Part shown: positions 8,312 to 64,000 of the stretch, piece by piece
How the letters are laid out: every line of letters begins with the position of its first letter
Numbering within the stretch: position 1 is the stretch's first letter
Source: Brachybacterium aquaticum
GTDB taxonomy: Bacteria; Actinomycetota; Actinomycetes; Actinomycetales; Dermabacteraceae
Direction of reading: 5' to 3'
Assembly: GCF_014204755.1 (NCBI RefSeq)
Contig: NZ_JACHLZ010000001.1
Coordinates: 682,001 to 746,000 of the forward strand
DNA: 64,000 bases
The notes under the pieces: generated by a model
Seen by the model: the letters and a program-made list of their open reading frames with translations, nothing else
Told to the model about the DNA's origin: nothing
Database searches by the model: none
Program-made: the position numbers and the translations under genes

Positions 8312-9055
8312 ATGGCACGCACGATCCTCACCCCCCGCACCGCTCGCACCGCCGCCACGGGCCGGGGCGCGCTGCGCTCCGTGGCCCTCGGCGCGCTCGT
8401 CGTCGGCCTCGCCGCCGGCTGCGGCAGCAGCGGCACCACAGAGGCCCCCGCCATCGAAGGCCCCGGCGCCTCCGCAGAGGAGGGTGCCGACGAGAGCACC
8501 GCCGACGACAGCGCGACGGACGAGGCGTCCGACGGGGGCGCCGGCGCGTCCGACGGCGGCGGCGCCTCCGACGACGGCGGTGCCGCTGCTGGTGCTGCGG
8601 GTGCCGCGCTGCCCGAGGACGCCGACCTCGCCACCGAGCAGCTCCCGATCCCCGCGGAGGAGGCCGTGCGCCTCGGCACCGACGCGGTCAGCGGCGGCGT
8701 GCTCACCTCGCTCGAGATCGACCACGACGACGACCAGTGGGAGTGGGAGGTCGAGCTCGTCGTGGACGGCGTCCAGCACGACCTCGACATCGACGCCACC
8801 ACCGGAGAGATCACGGAGCACGATCAGGACGACGACGATGACGACCAGGACCCGGCCGTCGACGTCACCTCCCCGATGCCCTACGCCGAGGCGATCGAGC
8901 TCGCCGTCGGCCAGGAGCCCGGGCGCGTGAGCGGCTGGGACCTCGACTCCGACGACGGCACCATCCGCTACCAGATCGACATCGAGCGCTCCGGCGGCGA
9001 CGACGTGGAGGTGGAGGTCGACGTCGAGACCGGCGAGGTCCGCGTCGAGGACTGA
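8312..9055 (+). CDS. PepSY-domain lipoprotein
   Basis: A 247-residue secreted lipoprotein. The signal peptide ends in the lipobox LAAGC with the lipidated Cys at residue 37. A long Asp/Ser/Gly/Ala-rich linker (about 45-105) is followed by two PepSY-type repeats. The first holds WEWEVELVVDGVQHDLDIDA then TTGEI; the second holds IRYQIDIERSGGDD then VETGEVRVED. PepSY modules bind or inhibit peptidases or sense envelope state; the exact role here is unknown. The protein is strikingly acidic, with a run DQDDDDDDQDP between the repeats. GGAAGG precedes the ATG. Confidence 0.9.
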   Translation: MARTILTPRTARTAATGRGALRSVALGALVVGLAAGCGSSGTTEAPAIEGPGASAEEGADESTADDSATDEASDGGAGASDGGGASDDGGAAAGAAGAALPEDADLATEQLPIPAEEAVRLGTDAVSGGVLTSLEIDHDDDQWEWEVELVVDGVQHDLDIDATTGEITEHDQDDDDDDQDPAVDVTSPMPYAEAIELAVGQEPGRVSGWDLDSDDGTIRYQIDIERSGGDDVEVEVDVETGEVRVED

Positions 9056-9066
9056 CACCCTGTTGC

Positions 9067-9136
9067 GACGCCCCGCCGGCAGTCGTGACGCCCCGCCGGC
9101 AGTCGTGACGCCACGCCGGCAGTCCTGACGCCCCGC
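9067..9136. repeat. 20-bp tandem repeat, 3.5 copies
   Basis: The unit GACGCCCCGCCGGCAGTCGT occurs at 9067-9086 and 9087-9106 without a mismatch. It recurs at 9107-9126 with two changes and as a 10-base partial copy at 9127-9136. It lies between the ends of the convergent lipoprotein and amidohydrolase genes and encodes nothing visible. Confidence 0.9.
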
Positions 9137-9167
9137 TCCTGTGCGGGCCGTCAGCGCGTCCCGGGCC

Positions 9168-10454
9168 TCACCGGGGCGCGATCACCGGCTCCCCGTCGGC
9201 CGCCCGATGCATGACCTCGCGCCCGCACTGCCACACCCGCAGCGAGCGGTGGCGGACATCCAGCGGGTCGCCCTCCCAGAGCACCAGGTCCGCGTCCTTG
9301 CCCTCGGTGAGCGAGCCGAGGCGGTCCTCGAGGCCGAGCACCCGGGCCGGGTGCAGGGTGATCGCGCGCAGCGCGTCCGCGGGCTCCATGCCGTGCTTGA
9401 CCGCGAGCGCGGCCTGGGTGACGAGGAACTCGATCGGCACCACCGGGTGGTCGGTGATGATCGTGACCTCGACCCCGGCGGCGGTGAGCAGGCCCGGGGC
9501 GCGCGGGGTGCGGTGTCGCACCTCGACCTTCGAGCGGGAGACGATCAGCGGTCCGTACAGCACCGGCACCCCCGCCTCCGCGATCCGGTCCGCGATCAGG
9601 TACGACTCGGTGCCGTGGTCCAGGACCAGGCGGTAGCCGAACTCCTCGGCCAGGCGCAGGGCGGTCGCGATGTCGTCGGCCCGATGGGCGTGCTGGCGCC
9701 AGGGGATCTCGCGCTCCAGCACGCGGGTCAGCGCCTCGGAGAAGAGGTCCGCGTCCCGCTCGCCCTCGGGCTTCGCCGCCCAGGCGCGGGCCTTCGCGAA
9801 GGCCTGGCGGATCGTGAGGGCCACGCCGAGTCGGGTCGAGGGGGTCTGCTTCCGCTCCCCGTACACGCGCTTGGGGTTCTCGCCGAGTGCGGACTTCAGC
9901 CCGGAGGGGTGGCGCAGCACCATCTCGTCGACCACCCGGCCGTGGGTGCGCAGCGCGACGGCGAGCCCGCCGATGGGGTTGCCGGAGCCGGGGTTCACGT
10001 TCACGGCGGTGACCCCGCCGATGATCGCGTCGTCGAAGCCGACGTCGGCGGGGTTGATCGCGTCGATCGCGCGGGCTGCCGCCATCACCGGGTCGGTCAT
10101 CTCGTTGGTGTCGTCGCCGGCCCAGCCCTCGCCCTCCTCGTCGACGCCGAGGTGCACGTGCGCGTCGATGAATCCGGGCAGCAGCCAGGCCCCGTCGGCG
10201 TCGATCACGGGGCGGTCCGCGGGGATCTCGAGGTCGGGGCCGAGCCCCGTGATCCGCCCCTCGCGCACCAGGACCGTGCCGTCGAAGGGCTCGCCCTCGA
10301 TCGGCACGACGTGCGCGCCGGTGATCGCGAAGGTCGTGCCCTCCACAGTGCTCCGGTCGGCCGACGTGCTCCTGCCGGCCGACGTGCTCGCGGCGGGGGA
10401 GGGGGAGGCGGGATCGTCGGCGGGGACGGGGCGGTGAACGGGCTCGGGAGTCAT
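9168..10454 (-). CDS. Amidohydrolase-superfamily metal-dependent hydrolase (imidazolonepropionase-like)
   Basis: A 428-residue cytoplasmic hydrolase of the amidohydrolase superfamily. Metal-binding signatures are DAHVHLG (H99 and H101), the strand HAHRADDI in mid-protein, DHGTES, and the final TDHP Asp. The C-terminal LTEGKDADLVLWEGDPL returns to the small beta-sandwich typical of imidazolonepropionase-like and dihydroorotase-like enzymes. The substrate is not identifiable. The first 40 residues are a disordered Ser/Ala/Pro stretch whose DNA includes a GTCGGCCGAC copy. The start is the ATG directly after GGAGG. The gene is divergent from ppk2. Confidence 0.87.
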   Translation of the reverse strand: MTPEPVHRPVPADDPASPSPAASTSAGRSTSADRSTVEGTTFAITGAHVVPIEGEPFDGTVLVREGRITGLGPDLEIPADRPVIDADGAWLLPGFIDAHVHLGVDEEGEGWAGDDTNEMTDPVMAAARAIDAINPADVGFDDAIIGGVTAVNVNPGSGNPIGGLAVALRTHGRVVDEMVLRHPSGLKSALGENPKRVYGERKQTPSTRLGVALTIRQAFAKARAWAAKPEGERDADLFSEALTRVLEREIPWRQHAHRADDIATALRLAEEFGYRLVLDHGTESYLIADRIAEAGVPVLYGPLIVSRSKVEVRHRTPRAPGLLTAAGVEVTIITDHPVVPIEFLVTQAALAVKHGMEPADALRAITLHPARVLGLEDRLGSLTEGKDADLVLWEGDPLDVRHRSLRVWQCGREVMHRAADGEPVIAPR

Positions 10455-14380: not shown

Positions 14381-17760
<3,380 letters not shown>

Positions 17761-36551: not shown

Positions 36552-37172
36552 TCAGAGCCAGTCCCCCTGGGCGTTGCGCTTCTCGGCACCGATGGTGGTG
36601 TCCGGGCCGTGGCCGGTGTGCACCACGGTGTCGTCCGGCAGTGCGAACAGGCGCTCGCGGATCGACTCCTCGATGGTCTCCCGGGAGGAGAAGGAGCGGC
36701 CGGTCGCGCCGGGACCGCCCTGGAACAGGGTGTCGCCGGTGAACACGGCGCCCAGCTCCTCGGAGTAGAAGCAGGTCGAGCCGGGGGAGTGGCCCGGGGT
36801 GTGCAGGGCCTCGAGGCTGACGCCCGCGATGGTGAACATGTCGCCGTCGGCGATGTCGTCGTCCCAGGGGAGGTCGCCGTGGGTGAGCTGCCAGACCTCG
36901 CGCTCGGCGGGGTTCAGCAGGATCGGGGCCTCGAGCGCCTCGGACAGCTCCGGGGCGAAGCGGACGTGGTCGTCGTGTCCGTGGGTGAGCAGGATGCCCA
37001 CGCACTCGCGCTCGCCGACCAGGTCCTCGATGGCCTGCACGTCGTGCGGGGCATCGAAGACGACGCACTGCTCGTCGTCGCCGAGCACCCACACGTTGTT
37101 CTCGACCTCGTGGGTCTCCCCGTCCAGGGAGAAGGTGCCGGAGGTGGTGCCGTGGGTGAGGCGGGCGGTCAT
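36552..37172 (-). CDS. MBL-fold metallohydrolase paired with mycothiol formaldehyde dehydrogenase
   Basis: A 206-residue zinc hydrolase of the glyoxalase II-like metallo-beta-lactamase fold. Metal ligands are in [10 protein letters not shown] (H64, H66, D68, H69), [18 protein letters not shown] and [15 protein letters not shown]. In actinobacteria this gene follows the S-(hydroxymethyl)mycothiol dehydrogenase, and its likely role is hydrolysis of the S-formylmycothiol product. Its ATG overlaps the preceding TGA (ATGA), so the two are translated together. Confidence 0.9.
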
Positions 37173-38269
37173 CGCTTCACCTCGACGACGGTGCGCAGGG
37201 TGTTGCCGTCGTGCAGCGCGTCGAGCGCCGCGTCGGTGCCGGCGAGGTCGGTGCGGCCGGTGACGAAGCGCTCCAGCGGCAGGCGGCCCTGCAGGTAGAG
37301 GTCGATCAAATCGGGGAAGTCGCGCTCGGGCAGGCAGTCGCCGTACCAGGAGGACTTCAGCGCGCCGCCGCGGCCGAACACGTCGGCCAGCGGCAGGGTG
37401 ATCTCGACGCCCGGGCGGGGCACGCCCACGAGCACCACGCGGCCGGCGAGGTCGCGGGCGTAGAAGGCGGCCTCGTAGGTCTGCGGGATGCCGACCGCGT
37501 CGACCACCACGTCGGCGCCGAAGCCGCCGGTGAGCTCCTGGACCTTGTCGGCGACCTGCTGCGGGGAGAGGCCCTTGGTGAGCAGGGTGTGGGTGGCGCC
37601 GAGCTCCTCGGCGGCGGCGAGCTTCTTCTCGTCCACGTCCAGGCCGATGATGGTGGTGGCGCCGGCGAGCTTCGCGCCCGCGATCGCGGCGCAGCCCACG
37701 CCGCCCAGGCCGATCACGGCGAGGGACTCGCCGCGCTGGACCTGGCCGGTGTTCATGGCGGCGCCGAGGCCGGCCATGACGCCGCAGCCGAGCAGACCCG
37801 CGACCTCGGCCGGGGCGTCCTCGGAGACCTTCGTGCACTGGCCCTCGTGGACCAGGGTCTTCTCGGCGAAGGAGCCGATGCCGAGGGCCGCGGTGAGCTC
37901 GGTGCCGTCGGTGAGAGTCATCTTCTGCGAGGCGTTGTGGGTCGCGAAGCAGTACTGCGGCACACCCTTCTTGCAGGCGCGGCACTCGCCGCACACCGCG
38001 CGCCAGTTCAGCACGACGTAGTCGCCGACCTCGACGTGCGTGACGGCCTCGCCGACCACGGACACGCGGCCCGCGGACTCGTGGCCGAGCAGGAACGGGA
38101 ACTCGTCGTTGATGCCGCCGTCGCGGTAGGCGAGGTCGGTGTGGCACACGCCGGTCGCCTCGATGTCGACGATGACGTCGTGGGGACCGGGGTCGGGGAT
38201 GACGATGTCGAGCAGCTCGGCGGGCTGCTTCGCGGCCCGGGCGACGACGCCCTTGACGGTGATGGGCAT
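37169..38269 (-). CDS. mscR: S-(hydroxymethyl)mycothiol dehydrogenase
   Basis: A 366-residue zinc-dependent class III-type alcohol dehydrogenase that oxidises the formaldehyde-mycothiol adduct with NAD and may also reduce S-nitrosomycothiol. Catalytic zinc ligands are C42 ([14 protein letters not shown]) and H63 (LLGHESAG). Structural zinc Cys are in [20 protein letters not shown]. The dinucleotide loop is [12 protein letters not shown]. The mycothiol assignment rests on family resemblance and the coupled MBL partner. AAGGAGG precedes the ATG. Confidence 0.92.
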
Positions 38270-38378: not shown

Positions 38379-40322
38379 TCAGTGCCTGTCGGCGAGCTTC
38401 CCGTCCCGCACCGACTGATGCTCGGGGTTGAAGGCCCTCCCCGGAGCCCTGTAGTCGCCGCCGACGGGCTCACTCTTCCCTGTCGAGTCCGCGATGGCAT
38501 TGTGGCCCTCGAGATTGCTGATCGCGGCGTCCGCATCCGAGGACCGTTGCACCACCATGGAGAGCGCTTCAGCGGTCCCGGCATCGTCAGGGACAAGTTT
38601 CAGGGCCCGGGCATGATCGCGGACCACCGATGCCTCGTCCTCGGTGAGGAGGATGCTCGTGCGGTCGCCCGGGGATTCGAGGCCGTAGGACGATGTCGCC
38701 GCGCGGGAGCCGCCCGAGGTGTCCAGGGTGACGACGTAGGTGGACTCTCTCCCGCTCGCATCCGAGCGGACGACACTGGTCATCGACGAATCGCCGTGAG
38801 GGAGCCATTGCGCCGCGCTCTCCTGGTGCCCGTCCGGGTACGTGCGCGTGATCGACTGCTGCGTGAACATGTTGCTCGACAGCTCGGAACTTGCCGGACC
38901 GGTGGTGACGCCGCCGGCGACGTCGACGGTCCTGGTCCTCTGGTTCTCGACGTATGTCGTGAGCACACCGTCACCGGTGTTGCTCGGGTACTTGCCGTTC
39001 GTCAGGGCTTCCTGGTAGGCCCTGCGTCCGGAGGCGGTGTCCTCGAACGTGGCAGTCTCGAAGGTCGAGCCGTCCCGGGAGTCGGACTGGGCGATGTGCA
39101 GATTGAGGTCATCGGTGCCGAGCCGCGCGGTGACCGTGCTGTTCATCGCGGACGTCGGTCCCGTCGTGACGGTGAGGTTCCCGTCGGAGTCACGGCCGAC
39201 GCTCGTGGTCGTCCCCTCCCCGTTCGACTTCTGGGCACCGATGGAGAACAGCCCGTCTCCGACGACCCCGATGCCGACGTCCGCGCCTCCGGACGTGGCT
39301 CGCTCGCTGGAGAAGGACACGGAAGCCCCCGGCGGGATCGATGACGGATCGTGGGGCGTGATCGCGAGCACCTCGGCGATGGAGGTCCCCTCGGGGACCG
39401 TCACCTCGTACTCGGTGGAGCGTGAGCTCCCGCTGTTCACACCGACGTCTCCGGAGAAGTTGACCCCCTTGGCGGCGAGCTCTGCCTTCGCCTCCTCGGA
39501 GAGCTCCGAGGTGACGGTGTACGTGACCGTCCCGTCCCCGTTCTCCCTGAAGGAGCCCGAGGTCTTCACGTCGAGCGAGTACGAGGCCTCGACAGGGCCC
39601 GCCTTGCCCTCCTCATCGACCAGAGGAGCGGAGATCTGGACCGTGCCGCTCCGGTTCCCGTCTTCGTCCACGGAGGTCTCGATGCTCCCGTGATCTCCCT
39701 CCAGCTTCGACGAGAGGGTGCGGACGCCTTCTCCCGGCGTCGCGTCGAACTCATCCTCCGGGCTGTCATAGTCGCCGTCGTACTTGTCGACCTTCTTCTC
39801 GACCGGCTCCAGACCGAAGAGATCGTTGATGAGGTCCTGGATGCCCTGGTCCGCCCCCGCCCCCTTCGAACCCCCCGGATCCAGCGCCGCGAGCAGGGGA
39901 TTCCCCGAGCCCGGACCACCAGCGCCCCCTGGCGCCACGGCCTCCGCCAGGGTCCGTGCCCAGCCCACCGCCTCGGAGAGCGGGCCCGCTGCAGTGGTGA
40001 ACCAGGAGGACAGGTCCGGCAGCCCGAGCCTGTCGCCGAGGCTGCGGCCCCCGCCGGACCCGTCCGACGAGGCCGCGTCCTGCTCCTGCGCGTGCTCGGC
40101 GAGCTCCCTTCCGCGGGCGGTGACGTCCTCGGCCGCCTGCGTGAGGAGCCTGTCCACCTCAGCCCAGCGAGCGCGCAGCGCGTCGGCGTCGGGACCCACC
40201 CAGGTCACCGACATGACCGCGGAGGTCAGGGTCGAGGAGTGCTGCAGCATCTCGCGCCCGCACCGTCGGAAGGCCGTCGCCTGCTCGCGCAGCGCTGCCG
40301 TGTCCGCACCCTGGAAACCCAT
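38379..40322 (-). CDS. Large WXG100-type protein, candidate type VII secretion substrate
   Basis: A 647-residue protein with no signal peptide. The first 95 residues are two predicted helices separated by a WxG turn (SVTWVGPDADALRARWAEVD), the ESAT-6/WXG100 fold. A Gly/Ala/Pro linker and a short helical region follow (to about 190). The bulk (about 200-560) is Ser/Thr/Asp/Gly-rich and beta-strand-like, for example YEVTVPEGTSIAEVLAITPH then DPSSIPPGASVSFSSERATS and TTTSVGRDSDGNLTVTTGPT. The end is helical with HNAIADSTGKSEP. I know no named domain for the large part. No ESX ATPase or immunity-like gene is adjacent. It resembles a secreted or surface actinobacterial family of unknown role. Confidence 0.72.
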   Translation of the reverse strand: MGFQGADTAALREQATAFRRCGREMLQHSSTLTSAVMSVTWVGPDADALRARWAEVDRLLTQAAEDVTARGRELAEHAQEQDAASSDGSGGGRSLGDRLGLPDLSSWFTTAAGPLSEAVGWARTLAEAVAPGGAGGPGSGNPLLAALDPGGSKGAGADQGIQDLINDLFGLEPVEKKVDKYDGDYDSPEDEFDATPGEGVRTLSSKLEGDHGSIETSVDEDGNRSGTVQISAPLVDEEGKAGPVEASYSLDVKTSGSFRENGDGTVTYTVTSELSEEAKAELAAKGVNFSGDVGVNSGSSRSTEYEVTVPEGTSIAEVLAITPHDPSSIPPGASVSFSSERATSGGADVGIGVVGDGLFSIGAQKSNGEGTTTSVGRDSDGNLTVTTGPTSAMNSTVTARLGTDDLNLHIAQSDSRDGSTFETATFEDTASGRRAYQEALTNGKYPSNTGDGVLTTYVENQRTRTVDVAGGVTTGPASSELSSNMFTQQSITRTYPDGHQESAAQWLPHGDSSMTSVVRSDASGRESTYVVTLDTSGGSRAATSSYGLESPGDRTSILLTEDEASVVRDHARALKLVPDDAGTAEALSMVVQRSSDADAAISNLEGHNAIADSTGKSEPVGGDYRAPGRAFNPEHQSVRDGKLADRH

Positions 40323-40354: not shown

Positions 40355-40400
40355 AGCGTAGGGGCCGACGGGGGATCGCGACATGGGGAGCACTCCCCAT
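40355..40400 (-). promoter_or_regulatory. Promoter and 18-bp dyad of the WXG100-type gene
   Basis: On the minus strand TACGCT (40360-40355) lies 17 bases after TGTCGC (40383-40378). Touching the -35 is the perfect dyad ATGGGGAG-CA-CTCCCCAT (40383-40400), a likely regulator site. GGGGCAGGATCG precedes the ATG. Confidence 0.5.
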
Positions 40401-40600: not shown

Positions 40601-41707
40601 GTGTCCGACACATCCCCCGCGCCCGGCGCGCCCGAGATCGACGAGGAGTCGATCAGCGCCGCCGTCGAGGCCGCCCTCGCCGCGATCGCCGCGGCCCCCG
40701 ACACCGCCGCCCTCAAGCAGGTGCGCATCGACCACGTGGGCGACACCAGCGTGCTCACCACCGCGAACCGCGCGATCAAGGACCTGCCCAAGGAGCAGAA
40801 GGCCGCCGCCGGCAAGCTCGTCGGCCAGGGCAAGGGCCGCGTCCAGCAGGCGCTCGGCGCCCGCCAGGCCGAGCTCGCCGCCGCCGAGGAGGAGGCGACG
40901 CTCGCCGCGGAGACCGTCGACGTCACCCTGCCCACCGACCGTCGGCCGCGCGGTGCTGCGCACCCGCTGAGCACGCTGGCCGAGCGGATCGAGGACTTCT
41001 TCGCGGGGCTCGGCTGGGAGATCGCCGAGGGGCCGGAGGCGGAGTCCTCCTGGCTGAACTTCGACGCGCTGAACGCGGATGCGGAGCACCCCTCCCGCTC
41101 GCTGCAGGACACCCTGTACCTCGCGCCCGAGGACTCCGGGATGCTGCTGCGCACCCAGACCTCGCCGGTGCAGATCCGCGCCATGCTCGAGCGCGGCGCG
41201 CCCCTGTACGTCGCCTGCCCGGGCACCGTGTACCGGGCCGACGAGATGGACGCGACGCACTCGCCGATGTTCAACCAGGTCGAGGGCCTCGCCATCGACA
41301 AGGGCCTGACCATGGCGAACCTCGTCGGCACCCTCGACGCCTTCGCCGCGCACGTCTTCGGCGGCGCGCCGATCACGCGCCTGCGCCCCAACCACTTCCC
41401 CTTCACCGAGCCCAGCGCCGAGATGGACTTCCGCTGCTTCGCCTGCGATGCGCGGCTGGGCCTGGACCACGACGCGGACCCGGACTGCCGGGTCTGCGGC
41501 GGCACCGGCTGGATCGAGATGGGCGGCTGCGGCATGGTCCACCCGAACGTGCTGCGCGCGGCCGGGGTGGACCCCGAGGAGTACCAGGGCTTCGCCTTCG
41601 GCCTCGGCATCGAGCGCATCCTCATGCTCCGCAACGGCGTGGCGGACATGCGCGACATGGTGGAGGGCGACGTCCGCTTCTCCCAGCACTACGGGACGGA
41701 GATCTGA
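40601..41707 (+). CDS. pheS: Phenylalanyl-tRNA synthetase alpha subunit
   Basis: A 368-residue class II synthetase subunit holding the catalytic site. The N-terminal coiled coil (about 20-95) is followed by HPLSTLAERIEDFFAGLGWE, TSPVQIRAMLERGAPLYVAC, motif 2 PGTVYRADEMDATHSPMFNQ and motif 3 GFAFGLGIERILMLRNGVAD. Four Cys (CFAC and CRVC) lie in the insert after MDFR and may bind zinc. The GTG start has AGGACGAAAG upstream. pheT starts one base after its stop. Confidence 0.96.
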   Translation: MSDTSPAPGAPEIDEESISAAVEAALAAIAAAPDTAALKQVRIDHVGDTSVLTTANRAIKDLPKEQKAAAGKLVGQGKGRVQQALGARQAELAAAEEEATLAAETVDVTLPTDRRPRGAAHPLSTLAERIEDFFAGLGWEIAEGPEAESSWLNFDALNADAEHPSRSLQDTLYLAPEDSGMLLRTQTSPVQIRAMLERGAPLYVACPGTVYRADEMDATHSPMFNQVEGLAIDKGLTMANLVGTLDAFAAHVFGGAPITRLRPNHFPFTEPSAEMDFRCFACDARLGLDHDADPDCRVCGGTGWIEMGGCGMVHPNVLRAAGVDPEEYQGFAFGLGIERILMLRNGVADMRDMVEGDVRFSQHYGTEI

Positions 41708-63382: not shown

Positions 63383-64000
63383 ATGTCTGTCCCGTCCCGA
63401 CCGAAGCGACGCCGACGCAGTCGCGCCACGGTCGTCACGACGGCCGTGCTCTCCGTGGTCGCGCTCGTCCTGACGGGCTTCGCCGTGAACTACGAGGGCC
63501 TGGACTCCTCGGACATCGACGTCTCCAACGGCGGCGTCTGGGTGAGCAGCGCCGAGGATTCGATGATTGGCCGCCTCAACGTCGACGCCGGGGAGCTGGA
63601 CGCACGCCTGTCCTCCACGGGCCAGGACCTCGACATCATCCAGTCCGGGTACCACGTCTTCGAGACCGGCCCCCGCGGCATGACTCCGATCAACACCGCG
63701 TCGATCACCCGCAACGGCCTGGTCGAGCTGCCGCCGGACTCCCGCGTCGCCATCGGTGGTGACCGTGTCGCGATCGCGTCCCCGGACGGCAAGGTCTGGG
63801 TCCTCTCCCCGGAGGAGGCCGCCGCATTCAGCCCCTCCGCGGTGGAGCCGAACGTCGAGACGGGCAACGGCATCGCCCCCATCGCCGTGAGCCCGACCGG
63901 CACCGTCTTCGTCCTCGAGGACAGCTCGCTGCACACCCTCAGGCGCCAGGTGGACAGCCGCAAAACCACCGTCGATCGGACGGTCGAGATCGCGGGCCTG
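63383..64000 (+). CDS. Membrane-anchored extracellular protein, N-terminus (cut by window edge)
   Basis: 206 codons are present with no stop before the window ends. The basic head SVPSRPKRRRRSRATVVTT is followed by one membrane helix AVLSVVALVLTGFAVNYEGL, so the rest is outside the cell. The exported part contains repeated GGVWVSSAEDSMIGRLNVDA and GDRVAIASPDGKVWVLSPEE-type strands, like blades of a beta-propeller. Large actinobacterial proteins of this layout often continue into fibronectin type III or immunoglobulin-like repeats, which cannot be seen here. GGGGG lies before the ATG. Confidence 0.7.
   Translation, partial: MSVPSRPKRRRRSRATVVTTAVLSVVALVLTGFAVNYEGLDSSDIDVSNGGVWVSSAEDSMIGRLNVDAGELDARLSSTGQDLDIIQSGYHVFETGPRGMTPINTASITRNGLVELPPDSRVAIGGDRVAIASPDGKVWVLSPEEAAAFSPSAVEPNVETGNGIAPIAVSPTGTVFVLEDSSLHTLRRQVDSRKTTVDRTVEIAGL

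Follow-up and report, generated by a model that had tools for sequence, protein, structure and literature searches.

A WXG100-fusion protein of Brachybacterium with a predicted β-barrel body is a candidate type VII substrate and shares a palindromic promoter element with a T7SSd-like locus

A 647-residue protein encoded in a 64,000-nucleotide stretch of the Brachybacterium aquaticum chromosome (contig NZ_JACHLZ010000001.1, positions 682,001 to 746,000; hereafter the window) appears to represent a new family of candidate type VII secretion system (T7SS) substrate, in which an N-terminal WXG100 domain is joined to a body predicted to form a β-barrel. Judging from its sequence and from structure models, we think it probable that the protein is exported by the type VII system of Brachybacterium, which resembles the little-studied T7SSd of Actinomycetota: the WXG100 domain would target it for secretion, the barrel would act outside the cell, and a shared 16-bp palindrome would provide for co-expression. 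To our knowledge, the substrates of T7SSd are almost unknown. The palindrome and the candidate regulon defined by it are new.

Results

The gene and its WXG100 domain

By cross-species comparison the open reading frame (ORF) is a genuine gene and not a chance frame, because full-length syntenic orthologues, 25–48% identical, occur in other species. Its extent and the WVG at residues 41–43 were as the first-pass annotation of the window had given them, on the minus strand (Table 1). That annotation had also noted the lack of a signal peptide and of any nameable domain beyond the N terminus, and both observations held: a simple hydropathy scan (used for all such statements below) found neither a signal peptide nor a membrane helix in the protein, and nothing exceeded the cut-offs in searches of Pfam, NCBIfam and PADLOC. 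A generic sigma-70 scan found neither promoter nor terminator at the gene.

On the evidence of profile comparison and modelling, residues 1–88 are a WXG100 hairpin related to EsxA, as had been proposed. A profile of the orthologues and one small WXG100 protein matched Staphylococcus aureus EsxA (2vs0) at E=1.8e-7; in a single comparison, residues 1–88 shared 37% identity (E=3e-17) with an 89-residue WXG100 protein of the genome's own type VII locus; and AlphaFold, with modest confidence in this region, predicted helices at residues 8–38 and 46–86 with W41-V-G43 in the loop between them. The 647-residue sequence alone did not reach Pfam PF06013, and we set aside PE/PPE membership for the protein, whose PPE match (E=0.66, 10.4 bits) fell short of the cut-off of 26.

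Calling the protein an orphan, as the annotation did, is misleading, as the genome contains about ten WXG-domain genes, most of them with a common palindromic promoter. Among 39 N-terminal relatives (paralogue panel, alignment A5, loci L002–L097), 13 matched Pfam WXG100; the cargo comprised an NS_2 endonuclease domain in two, a PGAP1/lipase-like domain in one and a calpain protease domain in two, and most of the others matched nothing. These fusions to nuclease, lipase-like and calpain domains support a role of the N-terminal domain in targeting diverse cargo. One 291-residue paralogue (L025:4199-5074, C1:391780 region) ends in a glycine-zipper-like hydrophobic stretch and is followed by two uncharacterised same-direction genes, possibly encoding chaperones or immunity proteins.

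A T7SSd-like locus on the same chromosome

The statement that no ESX machinery, partner or immunity gene lies next to the gene was correct locally, the immediate neighbours being the divergent pheS and an adh–MBL pair, none of which is a partner or immunity gene. A type VII gene cluster nevertheless begins within the final ~620 bases of the window, ~23 kb from the gene, and continues past the window's end, with its ATPase 43 kb away. Searching the genome for an EccC-type ATPase, as the annotation had suggested, we found a single one on the closed, 3.45-Mb chromosome (C1:765278-769741), with an N-terminal FHA domain (residues 110–196) and two FtsK/SpoIIIE domains above the family cut-off, and with resemblance to EccC (4nh0, E=1e-65) and YukB (E=5e-59). 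Small WXG100 genes lie directly behind it and include two near-identical tandem pairs (L022:16119-16726 and 17041-17648), each copy with a palindrome promoter of its own. Upstream of the ATPase are genes for a 2,090-residue Ig/fn3 protein with Big_9 and fn3 repeats, MoxR, DUF58, TgpA-transglutaminase, RDD-FHA, PP2C and FHA proteins and a kinase. The kinase has one transmembrane-like helix; the Ig/fn3 protein showed no C-terminal transmembrane helix, we identified no candidate at the locus for TsdH, a single-transmembrane protein, and we found no EccB in the genome. By gene content, the locus resembles the published T7SSd. The first ~90 residues of the ATPase (L022:10279-10550), ahead of the FHA domain, look ubiquitin-like by eye; such a domain may be fused here, T7SSd being described without a ubiquitin-like protein.

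The ATPase was present in all 38 Brachybacterium genomes searched. Outside the genus, the WXG N-terminal domain occurred in 6 of 13 genomes with a close ATPase versus 5 of 47 without one (Fisher p=0.009, kinship ignored). An EccC-type ATPase in the same genome and the lack of a Sec signal on the 647-residue protein are what is looked for in a type VII substrate, and both the secretion system and the hairpin on which the first-pass proposal depended are present.

A palindrome shared with the type VII locus

A 16-bp palindrome, TGGGGA-N4-TCCCCA, precedes the gene and its orthologues; it also stands at three WXG100 promoters of the type VII locus and before most of the dispersed WXG-fusion paralogues. 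We first spotted it by eye in aligned occupied sites, not blind, and did genome-wide and reversed-pattern controls later. When 54 WXG-domain genes (orthologues, dispersed paralogues and genes of the type VII locus) were scored against a maximum of 15, 50 scored 11–15 and 47 scored at least 13, compared with 10 for the best in-gene control; the WXG gene at C1:2164072 had no good site. A TANNNT hexamer starts 23 bp past the palindrome in 40 of the 50 and 24 bp past it in 4 more. Taking this hexamer as the −10 element places the palindrome at about −51 to −36, and because of that position it would be an activator site.

The genome contains 13 perfect and 4 one-mismatch palindromes, versus 3 for the reversed pattern. 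The full pattern (palindrome, T and −10 element at fixed spacing) has seven sites in this genome, six of them ahead of WXG genes: the gene studied here (window 40355–40399), two dispersed paralogues and three genes of the type VII locus. It was found in 36 of the 38 genus genomes, with the reversed control in 0 of 98 genomes. Outside the genus it was found in 6 of 60 genomes; five of these 6 have a close ATPase (Fisher p=0.001), and one of the sites falls directly between the genes for the ATPase and a WXG100 protein. Open-access papers searched for the literal palindrome gave no match, although the motif may be spelled in other ways. Because the palindrome is shared between the type VII WXG100 genes and the dispersed paralogues, these comparisons suggest that it marks a substrate regulon comprising the studied gene, the WXG100 genes of the locus and most dispersed WXG fusions.

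Perfect palindromes also precede six non-WXG genes of this genome (C1:167602, 1320921, 2761635, 251893, 2364033 and 3041901; loci L154, L161, L164, L155, L163 and L165), which encode an LppM-domain lipoprotein, another lipoprotein, a DUF4352 protein and three uncharacterised proteins. The site at C1:251893, upstream of a gene for a 169-residue protein, appears from its shared flank TCGGCA to recur in many genus genomes, and that gene may be a conserved regulon member.

A single site with scattered occupancy and fast divergence

The gene was found in 10 of the 38 Brachybacterium genomes (its own and nine others, full-length or nearly so), always between pheS and adh. Nine of the ten copies are intact; the broken one, in a 74%-complete metagenome-assembled genome (L063:6971-8275), has a frame change and an internal deletion. 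The site is empty, with pheS directly beside adh, in 21 of the 30 genomes in which the adh locus was read, and the flanks of empty and occupied sites can be aligned to near the gene. Presence is scattered on the adh tree, with at least five changes on well-supported branches, which for a one-gene tree is only indicative. Body identity between alleles is 22–66%, whereas adh is 76–93% identical to the window copy, and the bodies of the G012 and G027 alleles are only 30% identical even though the two genomes are sisters on the adh tree. In the orthologue alignment the linker (residues 89–202) is the most variable stretch, and the C-terminal segment (residues 535–647) diverges in step with the body, with no swapped domain. 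The next gene is adh in every Brachybacterium locus read, and none of these loci contains an immunity gene.

Outside the genus, related bodies occur in three Micrococcales genomes from two other families, the only credible long matches within the order searched. Two of the three have two copies each, in one case in tandem, and the same WXG-plus-body architecture recurs wherever the start could be read. In a Micrococcales family other than that of Brachybacterium, tandem WXG-plus-β-body genes (L142:6446-8245 and 8353-10167) lie near a gene for a CBM2-like secreted protein, and the palindrome promoter stands at the same spacing before the second gene, not the first. Among 396 sampled genomes of the phylum there was no further body homologue. 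A contig search with the single protein gave no match, and one with four aligned bodies returned three Brachybacterium records and nothing else. Viral contigs held no relatives, and we found no support for a phage origin.

Predicted fold of the body

Structure prediction and fold search of the body, another check suggested by the annotation, gave a meander barrel nearest to autotransporter and porin barrels. AlphaFold predicted long antiparallel strands over residues ~203–534 of the window protein, and the body of another allele modelled alone from 12 sequences reached a mean pLDDT (predicted local distance difference test score) of 87 and a pTM (predicted template-modelling score) of 0.79, with pLDDT ranging from 68 to 87 over five models. 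The predicted barrel has 12 strands. In structural alignments (VIA-align), the window protein model matched CymA at Z 16.6, and the other-allele model matched BrkA, EspP, NalP and CymA at Z 17–18 over 201–243 residues (root-mean-square deviation 3–5), well above the background stated for VIA-align. The best Foldseek match of the other-allele model was EspP (E=1.1e-4, TM-score 0.36–0.43; 0.3–0.45 overall). Strand residues alternate between apolar and polar (combined p ~1e-9), as they also do in soluble sheets. Searches of solved structures by phmmer and profile found no relative of the body. We regard a barrel fold for residues ~203–534 as likely on the basis of these models.

Table 1. Features of the gene and its surroundings, in window coordinates.
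Feature	Position	Strand	Evidence
Coding sequence, 647 residues: WXG100 domain, linker and predicted β-barrel body	38379..40322	-	ORF list and orthologues
WXG100 helical hairpin, residues 1–88, W41-V-G43 in loop	40059..40322	-	profile match, identity to locus protein, model
Linker, residues 89–202, low confidence, probably flexible	39717..40058	-	pLDDT <50 over 86–202; alignment variability
β body, residues 203–534, long antiparallel meander strands, predicted barrel	38721..39716	-	AlphaFold models of two alleles
C-terminal segment, residues 535–647, short helices	38382..38720	-	AlphaFold model
Palindrome TGGGGAGTGCTCCCCA (TGGGGAGCACTCCCCA on the plus strand), shared promoter element	40384..40399	-	locus comparison, genome scans
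−10-like hexamer TACGCT, 23 bp downstream of palindrome	40355..40360	-	motif scoring
adh, zinc-type alcohol dehydrogenase, marker on one flank of the syntenic site	37169..38269	-	
MBL-fold hydrolase gene, behind adh	36552..37172	-	
pheS, divergent, marker on the other flank	40601..41707	+	
Type VII locus start: N-terminal part of the 2.1-thousand-residue Ig/fn3 (TsdI-like) protein, continuing past the window	63383..64000	+	

Discussion

The proposal of a type VII substrate whose gene lies apart from the secretion system is well supported by the profile match, the type VII locus on the same chromosome and the shared promoter element. We envisage that the N-terminal hairpin acts as a targeting module, probably pairing with a small WXG100 protein of the locus, and that the FtsK-type ATPase would recognise this module. 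A flexible linker would connect the hairpin to the barrel-shaped body, which would act outside the cell, and the palindrome would probably bring about joint expression of the gene, the WXG100 genes of the locus and most of the dispersed substrates. The fast divergence of the gene and the repeated gain, loss or allele replacement at its one site suggest that the protein plays a part in how the cell interacts with others; it is most likely an effector at the cell surface or one that acts on membranes. As originally suggested, it may be a new effector, adhesin or contact-dependent factor: a barrel-type fold is predicted, but we found neither a toxin domain nor an immunity gene.

Several observations weigh against this explanation. 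No small WXG100 partner gene adjoins the gene, and the lack of an immunity gene in the Brachybacterium loci read weakens the case for a kin-directed toxin. Aromatic residues make up 4–7% of the body versus 14–18% of Escherichia coli OmpG, FadL, OmpX and OmpF, the interfacial hydropathy of the body matches a soluble Ig control and not porins, a polar waist crosses the middle of the apolar strand face, and the alignments behind the models hold only 9–12 sequences. Moreover, Brachybacterium is a monoderm, without an outer membrane, and offers no obvious membrane for an outer-membrane-type barrel. We rejected an outer-membrane porin in the strict sense on composition, there being no aromatic girdle and no hydrophobic lipid-facing belt.

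Within the secreted-substrate explanation, it is possible, though less likely than not, that the barrel is soluble or wall-bound and serves as an adhesin, ligand binder or surface protein that inserts into no membrane. Its soluble-like composition fits this form, as do a promoter element shared with exported lipoprotein-type genes (LppM family, DUF4352) and the Ig/fn3 protein of the locus, which hints at display on the surface; however, we saw no anchoring motif, and so wide a gap in divergence between gene and neighbour is more typical of antagonism. The other form, a pore former whose barrel enters, singly or as an oligomer, the membrane of a neighbour or of the producing cell, is possible but doubtful. 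The 12-strand meander resembles the NalP, EspP and BrkA translocators as well as CymA and OmpG, the alternation of strand residues is significant, and the hairpins are long and rich in serine, threonine and glycine; in addition, TspA has been described as a type VII toxin that depolarises membranes (PMC9484751). Yet a pore is hard to square with the missing aromatic girdle, the soluble-like interfacial hydropathy, the polar residues midway along the apolar face and the lack of an immunity gene. Unlikely, in our estimate, is its most ambitious version, an autotransporter-like architecture exported by a type VII system in a monoderm, in which a protein of WXG100 module, linker and membrane-inserting 12-strand barrel would enter foreign membranes and be deployed together with the dispersed WXG-fusion effectors through one dedicated promoter signal and a regulator.

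A different concern is that the barrel is a modelling artefact: AlphaFold may have forced long amphipathic hairpins into the nearest known barrel when in truth they form an elongated sheet or sandwich. The shallow alignment, the spread among the five models, the low TM-scores and the polar waist are all compatible with this concern, but models of two different alleles agree, and both the confidence of the best model and its Z-scores are high; we judge an artefact somewhat unlikely. Improbable, too, is a polymorphic toxin with its activity in the C-terminal 110 residues: although other genes of the genus join the same N-terminal domain to nuclease, lipase-like and calpain domains, these 110 residues have diverged alongside the body and match no toxin family, and no immunity gene lies downstream in the Brachybacterium loci read. 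We likewise set aside a polymorphic toxin of the LXG type, having found no toxin domain, no C-terminal swap and no immunity gene. A cytoplasmic or vestigial, unsecreted protein would account for the one broken orthologue but is very improbable given nine intact orthologues, a conserved promoter and a WXG100 targeting domain.

The shared promoter element provides a sequence rule for finding candidate substrates that are scattered over the chromosome and not confined to the secretion locus, so that the question of what T7SSd exports becomes directly testable; it also hints at a dedicated regulator. If the barrel is real, we found no precedent for it as a type VII cargo fold in the literature searched, and one would have to ask into whose membrane, if any, it inserts in a bacterium without an outer membrane.

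Compared with known systems, the protein combines familiar parts in an unfamiliar way. Its first 88 residues are like the WXG100 family (EsxA/EsxB, PF06013) in forming a helical hairpin with W-x-G in the loop, but members of that family are themselves only ~100 residues long, whereas here the hairpin is fused to 560 residues of linker, β body and C-terminal segment. With the LXG polymorphic toxins of T7SSb it has in common an N-terminal helical targeting domain, a large variable cargo, a patchy distribution and fast evolution; it differs in being of WXG100 and not LXG type, in lacking an adjacent small partner or immunity gene and a toxin domain, and in occupying a fixed syntenic site. The predicted 12-strand antiparallel meander barrel is like those of NalP, EspP, BrkA, CymA and OmpG, with Z 17–18 and root-mean-square deviations of 3.3–3.6 over 201–227 residues, although without sequence relation (6–12% identity, no PDB profile match), and the body here lacks an aromatic girdle, occurs in a Gram-positive monoderm and is predicted to be exported by a type VII system instead of Sec.

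As for the secretion system, T7SSd of Actinomycetota has been described as comprising an ATPase with FHA, the kinase TsdD, the Ig-like envelope protein TsdI and the WXG100 protein TsdA (PMC11217815, Garrett, Higginson and Palmer 2024). The Brachybacterium locus likewise encodes an FHA-bearing FtsK-type ATPase, a membrane Ser/Thr kinase, a large Ig-like envelope protein and WXG100 proteins, with no EccB found; it additionally contains MoxR, DUF58, TgpA-transglutaminase, PP2C and further FHA genes, and TsdH was not identified. The candidate T7SSd substrates named in that work, Rhs or LXG-like proteins, have their genes at the locus (PMC11217815), whereas the candidates here are dispersed. The FN3, AAA-ATPase, DUF58, transglutaminase, kinase, PP2C and FHA genes of the PFNA cluster of bifidobacteria, described in a paper with no mention of secretion (PMC8430577), also head the Brachybacterium locus, where they are contiguous with the type VII ATPase and WXG100 genes (fn3, aaa, duf58, transglutaminase and kinase genes from L060:7447 to L022:9342, C1:745446-764341). 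This contiguity suggests a single system to which both PFNA and T7SSd belong.
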